52,514 bases of DNA from Acidimicrobiia bacterium. Its GTDB lineage: Bacteria; Actinomycetota; Acidimicrobiia; Spongiisociales; UBA5794. The stretch is from contig JASJAX010000009.1 in NCBI GenBank assembly GCA_030066755.1, forward strand, positions 1 to 52,514, read 5' to 3'. The notes beneath the pieces are model-generated. The model worked only from the letters and a program-made list of their open reading frames with translations. It made no database searches and was not told where the DNA came from. This document shows, piece by piece, positions 16,902-41,568 of the stretch (within the stretch, counting starts at the first letter, position 1; the number at the start of each line of letters is the position of its first letter). A program made the position numbers and the translations under genes.

Positions 16902-17282
16902 ATGAGTCTTCACTTCCTCGCTGGCTACGTGCTCGGTGAGCACGGCCGTCAGTCGGCCCGCCTGGCCGCAGCGGCTGGGGCTGCAGCCGGGTCGGGCGCC
17001 CAACGCGACGACATCTATGAACTCCACGATCGGGTCGATCGCCTGACCCTCGTCGTGGCGGCCATGTGGTCGCTACTCCAAGAGCAGGGACTCGATGAGC
17101 AAGCCCTCGCCGACCGCATCCGCGAGATGGACGAGGCCGACGGTTCCGCCGACGGCAAGATGACCCAGCAGGCTACGGACTGCTCGAGCTGCGGGGCAAA
17201 GATCGGCGCCGGCCTCGACCGCTGCCAGTTCTGCGGGGCCGCCGCAACCGACGGCACCGCCGACCCGTTTGCCAGGGTGTAG
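16902..17282 (+). CDS. Hypothetical protein with C-terminal zinc ribbon
   Basis: 'DCSSCGAKIGAGLDRCQFCGAAA' CxxC...CxxC. Confidence 0.7.
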   Translation: MSLHFLAGYVLGEHGRQSARLAAAAGAAAGSGAQRDDIYELHDRVDRLTLVVAAMWSLLQEQGLDEQALADRIREMDEADGSADGKMTQQATDCSSCGAKIGAGLDRCQFCGAAATDGTADPFARV

Positions 17283-17410
17283 TCACAAGTCACAAGTCTC
17301 AAGTCGCAAGTCCAGACCTGAGACACAATGACTTGAGACTTGAGGCACTCTGACCTGAGACTTGAGACCTGAGACCTGAGACCTGAGACCTGAGACCTGA
17401 GACCTGAGAC
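17283..17410. repeat. Heptamer array 4, two opposed blocks
   Basis: TCACAAG/TCTCAAG/TCGCAAG units start the base after the TAG stop, then GACTTGA/GACCTGA units to 17410; lies between convergent genes. Confidence 0.9.
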
Positions 17411-20222: not shown

Positions 20223-20288
20223 CAGTCGTCAGTCGTCAGTCACGAGCCACGAGCCACGAGCCACGAGCCACGAGCCACGAGCCACGAG
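20223..20288. repeat. Heptamer array 5: CAGTCGT x2, CAGTCAC, GAGCCAC x6
   Basis: Strict 7-bp period read directly. Confidence 0.9.
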
Positions 20289-20413
20289 AGCAAACGCGCA
20301 CCTGGCGATCACGTCAACCTCGTCTCGAAGCTCGACGCTTGACCCGGATGTCGCGCCGGGACCGAGCTGCCGCGTCCGAGGCCGCACGTTGATAGCGTTC
20401 GGGCTCAGGGCTC

Positions 20414-20523
20414 GACCTGAGACCTGAGACCTGAGACCTGAGACCTGAGACCTGAGACTTGGGACCTGAGACCTGCGACTTGGGACTTGGGACTTGGGAC
20501 TCGGCCTCAACTCGCTGAGGCCG
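20414..20523. repeat. Heptamer array 6 (13 units) plus terminal hairpin
   Basis: GACCTGA/GACTTGG/GACCTGC/GACTCGG units 20414-20504; hairpin CGGCCTCA-ACTCGC-TGAGGCCG 20502-20523. Confidence 0.92.
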
Positions 20524-22222: not shown

Positions 22223-22301
22223 ACGACGGCGCTGCAACCAAACGGTCGGCACCGGGGTTCTTGTCGATGAAGCTATTCGACACCAGAGGAGGTAGTGCAC
22301 G

Positions 22302-22877
22302 GTGACGACGAGGGCCGCACCGCGCCGGCTGAACGCCCGACTCGCCCGCGATCTGGACGACGCGTTCCCTACGCTCGTCGAGGAGTTCGCCGACGGGCTG
22401 TACTCCGGCGTCCGCCGGCTCGCGCCCGGCCGCGCCGACGCCGAGGATCTCGTTCAGGAGACCTTCCTACGGGCGTACCGTGCCCTGGGCTCCTACGGGC
22501 CGGAGCGGATCCGCTCGCTCAAGCTGAGCCCGTGGCTGTGGACCATTGCGCTGAACCTCTGCCGATCCGCCGCACGTCGCAGGGCTCGGCGCGTGACAGA
22601 GGTCGCTCTCGAGGCTGCATCCGGCACGGCGACGTCGCCGGACGACACTGCAGCGGACGCGGTGACGGCCTCGATGGAAGCAGTGTGGCGGCGTCGCCTC
22701 GACGCCCTCAGCACTGCGCAACGGACCGCTGTCGTCCTCCGCCATGTCGTTGACCTGCCGTACGCCGACATCGCTGAGGTGACCGGACGCCCCGTCGGCA
22801 CGACGAAAGCCGATGTCCACCGCGGTATCGAACAGCTCCGCCGACTGATGGCCGACGAGCACACGGACCAGGAGTGA
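22302..22877 (+). CDS. ECF-type RNA polymerase sigma-70 factor
   Basis: Region 2 'ADAEDLVQETFLRAYRAL', region 4 'LSTAQRTAVVLRHVVDLPYADIAEVTGRPVGTTKADVHRGIEQLR'. Confidence 0.92.
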   Translation: MTTRAAPRRLNARLARDLDDAFPTLVEEFADGLYSGVRRLAPGRADAEDLVQETFLRAYRALGSYGPERIRSLKLSPWLWTIALNLCRSAARRRARRVTEVALEAASGTATSPDDTAADAVTASMEAVWRRRLDALSTAQRTAVVLRHVVDLPYADIAEVTGRPVGTTKADVHRGIEQLRRLMADEHTDQE

Positions 22878-22883
22878 CCGATC

Positions 22884-23654
22884 ATGACGAACAACGATGT
22901 CATCACTGCATTGAACGAACTCGCAACGAGCGCGCCGGACGCCCTGATCGATCGCACTTTGGCAGCGACCGGTCACATCGACCACTACGCCATCCTCGAC
23001 GGCCCGGCCGGATCATGGGCCGTTGCCTTCAACGACCACGGCGTCTCCGGTGTGGTCCCCGCCGGGAGCGACGACGCCGGTGCGCTGGAAGCACGCACCG
23101 GTCGGCGGGCTGTACATGGCGCACTGCCGACCCGTCTCGCTCGCTCGCTCGAACGCGCCCTGCGAACCGGCAGGCTCGGAGCGCTGCCGATCGACACCAG
23201 ATCAATGAGTGCATTCCAGGTGCAAGTGCTCGAGAAGGCGGCGGAGATCCCGCCGGGAGAGTTGCGGTCCTACGGCTGGGTGGCACGTGAGATCGACCGG
23301 CCGGAGGCCAGCCGGGCGGTGGGTACTGCGCTGGCTCGCAACCCGATCCCGGTACTGCTCCCGTGCCACCGGGTGAGCCGCAGCGACGGTTCGATCGGCA
23401 ACTACGCCTTCGGCTCGGACATGAAACGAGCACTCCTCGAGGCCGAAGGCCTCGACGCCACCCGCCACCTCGACGAGGTGCAGCGCGGCGTTCGCTACCT
23501 CGGGACGGACACGACGAACGTCTACTGCCTGCCTACCTGCCGCCACGCCAGGCGGATCACCGCCCACCACCGCCAGGAGTTCCGCACCATCCAGGCTGCT
23601 GAGTCTGCCGGCAAACGCCCCTGTCAGGCATGTCGGCCGGCGGTAGCCGCCTGA
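22884..23654 (+). CDS. Methylated-DNA-protein cysteine methyltransferase fused to a C-terminal Ada-type Zn-binding domain
   Basis: 'IPPGELRSYGWVAREI...NPIPVLLPCHRVSRSDGSIGNYAFG' active site; C-terminal 'TNVYCLPTCRHARRITAHHRQEFRTIQAAESAGKRPCQACRP' Ada metal-binding pattern. Confidence 0.9.
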   Translation: MTNNDVITALNELATSAPDALIDRTLAATGHIDHYAILDGPAGSWAVAFNDHGVSGVVPAGSDDAGALEARTGRRAVHGALPTRLARSLERALRTGRLGALPIDTRSMSAFQVQVLEKAAEIPPGELRSYGWVAREIDRPEASRAVGTALARNPIPVLLPCHRVSRSDGSIGNYAFGSDMKRALLEAEGLDATRHLDEVQRGVRYLGTDTTNVYCLPTCRHARRITAHHRQEFRTIQAAESAGKRPCQACRPAVAA

Positions 23655-23710
23655 GGTCGAGGTCCCAGGTCCCAGGTCCCAGGTCCCAGGTCTCAAGTTC
23701 GAGGTTCGAG
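23652..23710. repeat. Heptamer array 7: TGAGGTC GAGGTCC CAGGTCC x3 CAGGTCT CAAGTTC GAGGTTC
   Basis: Starts at the TGA stop codon; strict 7-bp units. Confidence 0.88.
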
Positions 23711-24429: not shown

Positions 24430-26124
24430 ATGAGCGCCGCAGAGCTGATCGAGACCATCCGGAAATCGGTGATCGGAAGCGACGAGGTGGTGGGCGGCCC
24501 GTTTGGTCCGCGTCGTGTGATCTATGCCGACTACACCGCATCGGGCCGTTCGCTGTCGTTCATCGAGGACTACCTCCGCGAAGCCGTCCTCCCGCTGTAC
24601 GCGAACACCCACACCGAGTCGTCCGGGACGGGACTCCAAACGACCCGCTTCCGGGAGGATGCGCGGAACATCATCCGACGCTGCGTCGGGGCCGACGACT
24701 CCCATGCGGTGCTCTTCACCGGATCGGGTTCGACCGGCGCCATCGATCGGATGGTCCGGGTCCTCGGCCTGCGTATTCCTTGCGCGCTCGAAGAGCGGTA
24801 CGAATTGTCCTCCGACATCCCGGCCGCCGACCGTCCCGTCGTGTTCATTGGGCCGTTCGAGCATCACTCCAACGAGCTCCCGTGGAGGGAGTCGATTGCC
24901 GACGTCGTCACGATCGACGAGGACCACGACGGCCACATCGACCTCGAACACCTCGAACGCGAACTCATTCGATTCGCCGACCGCAAGCTCAAGATCGGCT
25001 CGTTCTCGGCGGCGTCCAATGTGACCGGCATCATCTCCGACACCCGGGCGATCGCCGAGCTACTGCATCGCCACGGCGCGCTGTCGTTCTGGGACTTTGC
25101 GGCGGCAGCACCGTACGTCGAGATCGAGATGACGCCGGACGGCAATGAGGCCTACGCCAAGGATGCAGTCTTCATCTCACCGCACAAGATGATCGGTGGA
25201 CCGGGCACGCCCGGCGTGCTCATCGCCCGTAAGGCGCTGTTCAAGAACCGGGTACCAGCAGTGCCGGGAGGTGGAACCGTTGCGTATGTCAACCCACTCG
25301 AACATCGCTACCTCGACGATGTCGAACATCGGGAGGAAGGTGGGACGCCGGCAATCGTGGAGTCGATTCGCGCCGGACTCGTGTTCCAGCTGAAGGAGGC
25401 GGTCGGTACCGACGTCATTCGGGACCTCGAGGAATCCTTCATCCGGCGAGCCATCGAGTCGTGGGAACAGAACCCGAACATCGACATCCTCGGCAACCAC
25501 GAAGCCGACCGTCTCTCGATCGTCTCGTTCGTCGTACGCCACGGAGATCGATACCTCCACCACAACTACGTCGTGGCTCTCCTCAACGACCTGTTCGGAA
25601 TCCAATCGAGAGGCGGCTGTTCGTGCGCCGGCCCGTACGGTCACCGGCTGCTGGGTATCGACATCGATCGTTCACACGAGTTCGAGCGAGAGATCACCCG
25701 CGGCTGCGAGGGCATCAAACCCGGCTGGGTTCGGGTCAACTTCAACTACTTCATCTCCGAGGCGGTCTTCGAGTTCATCCTCGACGCCGTCCACTTCGTC
25801 GCCAACGAAGGGTGGGCGATGCTCCCGCAGTACCGCCTCGATGCCGTGAGCGGACTGTGGCGCCATCGCGACGGACTCGCCGAACCTCCGATGAGCCTGG
25901 ACGACATCGACTACACGACGGGCTCGATGGATTACCGCCATCGGCGCGAGACGGCTCCCGATTCCAATCTGTCTGCCTACCTCGACGAGGCAGCTCGGAT
26001 CGTGTCCGCCGCTCGCGGTGCGCTCCCAGAGCCGCTCGGCAACCCCGACGTGACCGCCGATTTCGAGCATCTGCGGTGGTTCCCTCTTCCTGACGAGATC
26101 CGGGATGAGCTGATCGGCACGTGA
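24430..26124 (+). CDS. Class V aminotransferase/cysteine desulfurase-fold protein
   Basis: 'YADYTASGRSLSFIEDYLREAVLPLYANTHTESS', 'FSAASNVTGIISD', 'ISPHKMIGGPGTPGVLIA'. Confidence 0.9.
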   Translation: MSAAELIETIRKSVIGSDEVVGGPFGPRRVIYADYTASGRSLSFIEDYLREAVLPLYANTHTESSGTGLQTTRFREDARNIIRRCVGADDSHAVLFTGSGSTGAIDRMVRVLGLRIPCALEERYELSSDIPAADRPVVFIGPFEHHSNELPWRESIADVVTIDEDHDGHIDLEHLERELIRFADRKLKIGSFSAASNVTGIISDTRAIAELLHRHGALSFWDFAAAAPYVEIEMTPDGNEAYAKDAVFISPHKMIGGPGTPGVLIARKALFKNRVPAVPGGGTVAYVNPLEHRYLDDVEHREEGGTPAIVESIRAGLVFQLKEAVGTDVIRDLEESFIRRAIESWEQNPNIDILGNHEADRLSIVSFVVRHGDRYLHHNYVVALLNDLFGIQSRGGCSCAGPYGHRLLGIDIDRSHEFEREITRGCEGIKPGWVRVNFNYFISEAVFEFILDAVHFVANEGWAMLPQYRLDAVSGLWRHRDGLAEPPMSLDDIDYTTGSMDYRHRRETAPDSNLSAYLDEAARIVSAARGALPEPLGNPDVTADFEHLRWFPLPDEIRDELIGT

Positions 26125-26155: not shown

Positions 26156-26425
26156 ATGGAACTCGACCAAACAACCCTCTCCGACCTCCTCCGTCGCCTG
26201 CGACGCGTTGAAGGACAGATCCGCGGGATTCAGGGCATGATCGAGGACGACCGTGAGTGCACCGACGTCGTCACCCAGTTCGCCGCAGCGATGCGGGCGC
26301 TGGAGCAGGCCGGCTTCAAGTACTTCTCGGCGACCCTGACCCAATGCGCCCTCGACCCCGACCGGGCCGCCGCCAACGGCTACACCGCCGACAAGCTCGA
26401 GAAACTGTTCATGCAGCTTGCGTAG
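26156..26425 (+). CDS. CsoR/FrmR-family metal- or persulfide-sensitive repressor
   Basis: 'LLRRLRRVEGQIRGIQGMIEDDRECTDVVTQFAAAMRALEQAGFKYFSATLTQC'. Confidence 0.9.
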   Translation: MELDQTTLSDLLRRLRRVEGQIRGIQGMIEDDRECTDVVTQFAAAMRALEQAGFKYFSATLTQCALDPDRAAANGYTADKLEKLFMQLA

Positions 26426-26442
26426 ATACCCCCCCGGGTATA
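26426..26442. promoter_or_regulatory. Putative CsoR/CstR operator 2 (ATACCCCCCCGGGTAT)
   Basis: Second dyad of the same type between the repressor and the rhodanese genes. Confidence 0.7.
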
Positions 26443-26480
26443 TGCTCCCCGCCACATACCCACGACACCCAGAGGACACC

Positions 26481-26792
26481 GTGTTCACCAAGACGAAGAT
26501 CGAACAAGTACCGGCCCGGCAGTGGAAGGCCTGGAAGGACGAACACGATGCCGTCGTGCTCGATGTCCGCGAACCCGCCGAGTGGGCGAATGGCCTTCTC
26601 CCCGATGCCGTGACCATGGCAATGAGCCGTGTCGCAACCGAATGGCAGCAGCTCGACCCCACCACTCCCGTGCTCGTGGTCTGCCGCTCGGGTAATCGCA
26701 GCAACTCAGTGGCGCGCGCCCTCGCCAAGGCCGGATTCTCCAAGGTCGCCAACATGTCCGGTGGCATGGTCGCCCTGGGGCTCGCCCGATGA
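26481..26792 (+). CDS. Rhodanese-like sulfurtransferase
   Basis: 'VVLDVREPAEWANG', active-site loop 'CRSGNRS'; GTG start 26481. Confidence 0.9.
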   Translation: MFTKTKIEQVPARQWKAWKDEHDAVVLDVREPAEWANGLLPDAVTMAMSRVATEWQQLDPTTPVLVVCRSGNRSNSVARALAKAGFSKVANMSGGMVALGLAR

Positions 26793-27196
26793 TCCGAGGG
26801 CGTTCCCGGTCCATCGCTGCGCTGGCGATCGCGGCATTCGTCGGGCTCGGTGCGTGCGGCGGCGACACCGTCGTCTTCGAGCTGACGGACGCCGTCGAGT
26901 CACAGGAGCTCCTGACCGAGCCCCCGGCCGGTCTCGTCGTCCTGGATATCCGCACACCGGACGAGTTCGCCGAAGGCCACATCGGTGGATCGAGCAACCT
27001 CGACTTCTACGAGCCGGATTTCGCCGCCTCGCTGGATGCGCTCGACAAGGACCTGCCGTACTTCGTGTATTGCCGGTCCGGGAACCGGTCATCTCAGGCC
27101 CTCGAGACGATGAAGGATCTCGGGTTCACCGAGGTGTACGAACTCGACGGCGGCATCATCACGTGGGCAGAGGCAGGGCTACCGATCGACCAGTAG
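26789..27196 (+). CDS. Rhodanese-like lipoprotein
   Basis: Lipobox-like 'FVGLGACGG'; 'VLDIRTPDEFAEGHI', 'VYCRSGNRS'; ATGA overlap. Confidence 0.9.
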   Translation: MIRGRSRSIAALAIAAFVGLGACGGDTVVFELTDAVESQELLTEPPAGLVVLDIRTPDEFAEGHIGGSSNLDFYEPDFAASLDALDKDLPYFVYCRSGNRSSQALETMKDLGFTEVYELDGGIITWAEAGLPIDQ

Positions 27197-27232
27197 CCAG
27201 TAGCCAGTAGCCAGTAGCCAGTAGCCAGTAGC
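27191..27232. repeat. Heptamer array 8: CAGTAGC x6 (contains the rhodanese stop codon)
   Basis: Six perfect copies; TAG at 27194-27196 is the CDS stop. Confidence 0.95.
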
Positions 27233-27250
27233 CAGACCGTACTCGGCTGA

Positions 27251-27306
27251 GACCTGAGACCTGAGACCTGGGACCTGCGACTTGCGACTTGAGACTTGGG
27301 ACTTGT
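27251..27306. repeat. Heptamer array 9: GACCTGA x2 GACCTGG GACCTGC GACTTGC GACTTGA GACTTGG GACTTGT
   Basis: Eight exact 7-bp units 18 bp after array 8. Confidence 0.93.
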
Positions 27307-27353
27307 GACACCCAGGGGACGGTGCAGCTGTCGACCGGGTACCCTCCCCTCCC

Positions 27354-37379: not shown

Positions 37380-37400
37380 GCGGCCGCGCGGCGGCCGCGG

Positions 37401-37470
37401 TCTCAAGTCCCAGGTCCCACGTCCCAGGTCTCAGGTCTCAGGTCCCAGGTCTCAAGTCCGAGGTCTCGGG
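37401..37470. repeat. Heptamer array 10 (10 units TCTCAAG/TCCCAGG/TCTCAGG), preceded by a GCGGCCGC-GCG-GCGGCCGC element (37380-37398)
   Basis: Exact 7-bp phase; fills the convergent gap and ends 3 bp before the hrpA stop. Confidence 0.9.
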
Positions 37471-37473
37471 TCC

Positions 37474-41382: not shown

Positions 41383-41522
41383 ACTTGGAACTTGGAACTT
41401 GGAACTTGGAACTTGGAACTTGGAACTTGGAACTTGGAACTTGGAACCCGGGACCTGGGACCTGGGACCTGAGACCTGAGACCTGAGACCTGCGACCTGC
41501 GACCCGCGGCCTGCGACCTGAG
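41383..41522. repeat. Heptamer array 11: ACTTGGA x9 then ACCCGGG/ACCTGGG/ACCTGAG/ACCTGCG units (20 units)
   Basis: 140 bp with no phase slip; divergent gap, 22 bp upstream of the hrpA start; followed by GCGGCCGC (41526-41533). Confidence 0.96.
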
Positions 41523-41568
41523 ACTGCGGCCGCATCGACCGCCTCCTCCCCCTCCCTATCCTCATCCC

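Follow-up and report, generated by a model that had tools for sequence, protein, structure and literature searches.

What keeps an ECF sigma factor in check when the gene beside it encodes a DNA repair enzyme and no anti-sigma factor is in sight? The question is raised by two forward-strand genes in the window (the whole 52,514-nucleotide stretch of Acidimicrobiia DNA analysed here), for which an earlier note had suggested that a protein joining an MGMT to an Ada zinc domain senses alkylation and controls the sigma factor. The upstream gene (22302..22877) starts with GTG and encodes 191 residues; its translation (22302-22874) matches Sigma70_r2 (2.8e-16) and Sigma70_r4_2 (4.4e-12) in Pfam, and it has regions 2 and 4 only, the make-up of an ECF sigma factor, as which the sigma tree also places it. 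Its stop codon ends at 22877 and the MGMT-Ada gene (22884..23654, 256 residues; translation 22884-23651) starts at 22884, leaving 6 bp between the two. The MGMT catalytic/DNA-binding domain (PF01035, DNA_binding_1; residues 110-189, 23211..23450, 2.7e-29) contains PCHRV at residues 160-164, and in structure the MGMT part comes closest to the MGMT domain of E. coli Ada (1sfe). It is followed by a C-terminal Ada_Zn_binding domain (residues 197-252, 23472..23639, 7.6e-9), whose four cysteines lie in CLPTC and PCQAC, the counterparts of CRPSC and PCKRC in E. coli Ada (PMC10779285). Pfam detects no AraC domain in this protein, which has neither the N-terminal zinc domain nor the AraC-type helix-turn-helix of Ada, and no anti-sigma domain in the examined genes adjoining the pair. 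The layout that the earlier note had read from the letters (a sigma gene 6 bp upstream, an inverted domain order without AraC, no anti-sigma factor nearby) is thus confirmed by coordinates, Pfam and motifs. The source genome has 36 Sigma70_r2 matches above cut-off, one other MGMT-like gene and, as its sole Ada zinc domain, the one described here.

The surroundings of the pair contain further features. A class V aminotransferase gene (24430-26124), related to the SufS cysteine desulfurase at a level far below the curated cut-off, lies downstream of the pair and is not evidently part of it. Beyond it, a CsoR-type repressor (PF02583) and two rhodanese-domain genes (26156-27196) likely form a persulfide/sulfur-stress operon. 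There are also many short tandem arrays of 7-bp units (AGACCTG, GACTTGG, AGGTCCC and similar), and related units recur at separate places in the window (17281-17410, 20241-20501, 23657-23705, 27190-27309, 37399-37473 and 41383-41524).

The association of such genes is already on record. A review of 2022, with reference to the ECF reclassification by Casas-Pastor et al. (2021), states in its available part that ECF122 has 6-O-methylguanine DNA methyltransferases as its conserved neighbours; it places this group among sigma factors without an anti-sigma factor, under 'unknown mechanism', and names the Cellulomonas protein WP_057211282.1 as its model (PMC8999054). The window pair, with its conserved MGMT gene adjoining the sigma gene, fits this description, the match being one of gene neighbourhood and description and not of sigma profile. 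Our literature search returned no paper on the mechanism of ECF122 or on a fusion of a zinc anti-sigma (ZAS) domain with MGMT, and no report of induction of the pair by alkylation. To what that part of the review covers, the present analysis adds evidence that MGMT-Ada may act as an anti-sigma factor, together with the promoter and the regulon.

An MGMT match at E 1e-15 was found in 125 of 138 genomes of the order. We fetched the loci of the subfamily, 84 of which left room to judge the upstream gene (L069, cut by a contig end, was left out), and in 83 of these a sigma gene lies directly upstream on the same strand; the lone exception, L070 in genome G104, has the MGMT without the sigma factor. 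As the same pair is present in 83 of 84 testable relatives, the pairing in the window is not due to chance. Sigma and MGMT genes overlap by 4 bp in 73 of the 83 pairs, which suggests translational coupling in most relatives and makes the 6-bp gap of the window unusual. Beyond the order, a sampling of phyla and a search through named genomes recovered the pair in Rubrobacter, Nonomuraea, Streptomyces, Streptosporangium, Actinomadura, Pseudonocardia and Actinokineospora, in Chloroflexota and WPS-2 and, more distantly, in Rokubacteria and others. The pairing on which the earlier note's idea depends is therefore real, conserved across several phyla, and more general than its author could see. The catalytic motif CHRV is retained in all paired MGMTs (107/107); an apparent PSHR in L007 and L013, suggestive of catalytically dead sensors, proved to be a pattern artefact. 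At four loci (L144 and L145 in Rokubacteria, L140 and L141 in Chloroflexota), MGMT-Ada stands beside sigma factors that branch elsewhere in the ECF tree, which suggests that pairs of this kind originated, or were exchanged, on more than one occasion. On the Streptomyces plasmids NBC_01022 and NBC_00503 (L376, L377), the sigma factor, MGMT-Ada and a second MGMT are found beside SARP regulators and metK/metF/metH, a setting that may hint at self-protection in a biosynthetic cluster.

The inverted Ada domain, which the earlier note had stressed, turns out to be a secondary feature. An Ada tail is present on 65 of the 83 paired MGMTs of the order and absent from 18, and the 18 Ada-less pairs still keep the sigma factor, the gene order and the promoter. 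Because of this absence, the core partner of the sigma factor is, judged by the genomes compared, the MGMT part, and Ada is optional and not required for pairing; where present, it would let the protein respond to more kinds of lesion. The same counts bear on a reading in which MGMT-Ada is a co-activator: once alkylated, it would bind promoter DNA through its methylated zinc domain and bring in the ECF holoenzyme, in the manner of methylated E. coli Ada. Methylated E. coli Ada contacts sigma70, and both the complete zinc domain in 65 of the 83 pairs and the structural likeness of the MGMT part to that of Ada would suit such a role. However, the pairs without Ada show that the arrangement persists in its absence, a k-mer search of the promoter regions found no further conserved box besides the -35 and -10 elements, and the ZAS domains fused to MGMT in relatives imply inhibition; co-activation is, in our judgement, quite improbable.

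Several of the distant pairs have MGMTs with long N-termini, and in Eremiobacterota (148 genomes searched, 30 loci fetched) the paired MGMTs carry an N-terminal ZAS domain with Hx3Cx2C beside a cognate ECF sigma factor, the hallmarks of the class I (ASDI/ZAS) anti-sigma factors. The sigma gene lies upstream, overlapping the MGMT gene by 14 bp, in 29 of the 30 fetched loci. All 30 aligned sequences share residues C3, H28, C32 and C35, and Pfam zf-HC2 matches 27 of the 30 (best 3.7e-6). The top two PDB profile matches of the domain are weak (3hug_B, 0.016, which we take to be the SigL anti-sigma factor RslA, and RsiW 5wuq_C, 0.06), and its AlphaFold model (pLDDT 54.6), which contains four helices only, does not confirm the tertiary fold. 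These pairs group with the window type with moderate support, both in the sigma tree (SH-aLRT 88) and in the MGMT core tree (94). The same ZAS-MGMT architecture with a sigma factor is present in Gemmatimonadota, where the zinc ligands are partly or wholly lost in L236-L239 and L241-L243; L242 and L243 have ZAS-like N-termini without any zinc ligand, and their close relatives keep some. Class I anti-sigma domains without zinc exist (PMC7406223). A zf-HC2-like MGMT N-terminus (E 0.0021) also occurs in one Chloroflexia genome (L152), and the sigma-less MGMTs from the same search mostly begin at the MGMT fold. Since ZAS/MGMT fusions exist, an anti-sigma protein can, to judge from these gene architectures, have an MGMT as its sensor. 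In addition, a single record from a plasmid of Streptomyces sp. NBC_00212 (WP_331721395.1) joins sigma region 4, MGMT and Ada in one chain; sigma region 2 is not recognised in it by Pfam, so that the sigma factor may be degenerate there.

Both kinds of fusion weigh on the idea that MGMT-Ada is an output only, the sigma factor being controlled by transcription or by another factor and the MGMT gene being the most conserved target in the operon. Such an arrangement would agree with an autoregulated promoter, with the window protein having no recognisable anti-sigma domain, and with the entry for ECF122 in the available part of the review (unknown mechanism, no anti-sigma factor; PMC8999054), but a mere output needs neither an N-terminal zinc anti-sigma domain nor fusion to a sigma factor, and we regard this explanation as unlikely. 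The fusion to the sigma factor and the tight pairing would also suit any physical coupling, including one that serves repair and not regulation, with sigma and RNA polymerase bringing MGMT to transcribed DNA; the anti-sigma-domain fusions, the autoregulation and the small regulon point to regulation instead, and a pure repair coupling appears very improbable.

At its N-terminus, the window protein has neither the Hx3Cx2C motif nor the three-helix bundle of the class I (ASDI/ZAS) anti-sigma factors. At the position of the relatives' anti-sigma domain, it has an N-terminal extension (residues 1-34, 22884..22985) with two predicted helices (residues 3-16 and 18-28) and the conserved pattern L..L...AP..L...VL..TGLAD. 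Sigma-paired MGMTs conserve this extension and most unpaired ones lack it, a distribution that also counts against MGMT-Ada being an output only. Class I anti-sigma domains bind sigma region 2 through their helix 4 (PMC7406223); by eye and by pattern the extension resembles this helix, a homology that profile comparison does not support and that we rejected. Profile similarity was found neither to the Eremiobacterota ZAS domain (hhalign probability 0.8%) nor to known anti-sigma factors, and the extension as a candidate sigma-contact region therefore stays a proposal. An AlphaFold model of sigma and MGMT read through an in-frame TGA gave good folds (pTM 0.60) and no confident docking; because the MGMT N-termini were misaligned into the sigma region, this model is no test of docking. 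Mutual information between sigma and MGMT gave no regional signal (Neff 55).

A motif search of the sigma upstream regions located a conserved ECF-type promoter, TGCAAC-N16-GKGTTCT, which in the window consists of a -35-like TGCAAC (22233..22238, forward strand) and, 16 nt after it, a -10-like GGGTTCT (22255..22261, forward strand). This site, TGCAACCAAACGGTCGGCACCGGGGTTCT (22233-22261), lies upstream of the sigma gene and is the sole exact match in the source genome. Of 107 regions upstream of sigma genes, 94 contain the relaxed form TGMAAC-N15-17-GKGTT and none the reversed pattern; related elements precede the sigma genes of Nonomuraea and Chloroflexota and, as TGAAAC, those of Rubrobacter and Eremiobacterota. 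An exact site is present in 79 of 137 genomes of the order, with few matches to the reversed control. Besides the operon itself, the gene that recurs downstream of the motif encodes an EamA exporter, and a one-mismatch site on contig C127 of the source genome (1141-1169) precedes an EamA relative. Single-case targets are a Peptidase_S26/HhH-GPD (AlkA-like) glycosylase gene (L348), MFS exporters (L358, L360) and a PQ-loop protein. Many of the other additional sites are not followed by a convincing gene start and are probably chance matches.

Taken together, these data favour, with reasonable confidence, MGMT-Ada as a soluble, alkylation-sensing anti-sigma factor of its dedicated ECF sigma factor; binding, inhibition and release are what we infer. 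We take it as such because of the fusions in relatives, because the conserved coupling, the autoregulation and the repair/efflux targets are consistent with a negative-feedback stress switch, and because alkylated MGMT is destabilised, its domains 'open up', and methylation of Cys38 in Ada is a known switch (PMC10779285). The control of the sigma factor that the earlier note had hypothesized accordingly gains support from the ZAS-MGMT homologues, the one sigma-MGMT-Ada fusion, the autoregulation and the regulon. As a plausible mechanism, unalkylated MGMT(-Ada) would bind the sigma factor and keep it from RNA polymerase. Irreversible transfer of alkyl groups from O6-alkylguanine, and from methylphosphotriesters where Ada is present, to cysteines of the protein would then change its conformation and use it up, freeing the sigma factor. 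The freed sigma factor would transcribe its own operon from TGCAAC-N16-GKGTTCT, supplying more repair enzyme and inhibitor as feedback, and would also drive a small regulon of EamA, some MFS exporters and, in one genome, the AlkA-like glycosylase. A more specific version is tentative, and we hold it with less than even confidence: a suicide anti-sigma factor, derived from a ZAS/MGMT fusion that lost its zinc bundle and acquired an Ada sensor at the C-terminus, in which the repair enzyme would free one sigma factor per lesion repaired and so act as a single-turnover damage counter.

Several known systems share parts of this design. Like the soluble zinc anti-sigma factors of the ZAS/ASDI class (RsrA, RshA, ChrR), the proposed sensor is cytoplasmic and encoded beside the ECF sigma factor that it would inhibit, and the Hx3Cx2C domain of that class is found in the Eremiobacterota relatives; unlike in that class, the proposed sensor here is a suicide DNA-repair enzyme, and the zinc bundle was either lost from the window protein or never present in it. 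ECF41, ECF42 and CorE have fused C-terminal regulatory domains, and the Streptomyces NBC_00212 fusion likewise has a regulatory-type domain C-terminal on its sigma factor, which in this case is MGMT-Ada. With ECF122 the pair shares an ECF sigma factor without a recognised anti-sigma factor, a conserved 6-O-methylguanine DNA methyltransferase neighbour and a mechanism listed as unknown, whereas the Ada domain, the anti-sigma fusions, the promoter and the regulon are absent from the available part of the review's account; for the ECF122-type group, as listed there, our proposal would offer a mechanism. E. coli Ada, finally, also combines an MGMT with an Ada zinc domain in a repair enzyme that doubles as a regulator, as proposed for the window protein, with its own gene among the outputs. 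In the window, however, the domain order is inverted, the AraC helix-turn-helix is missing, a dedicated ECF sigma factor takes the place of sigma70, and inhibition is proposed instead of activation. The pair would thus represent a second alkylation-response design besides Ada, in which the repair enzyme itself inhibits a dedicated sigma factor.
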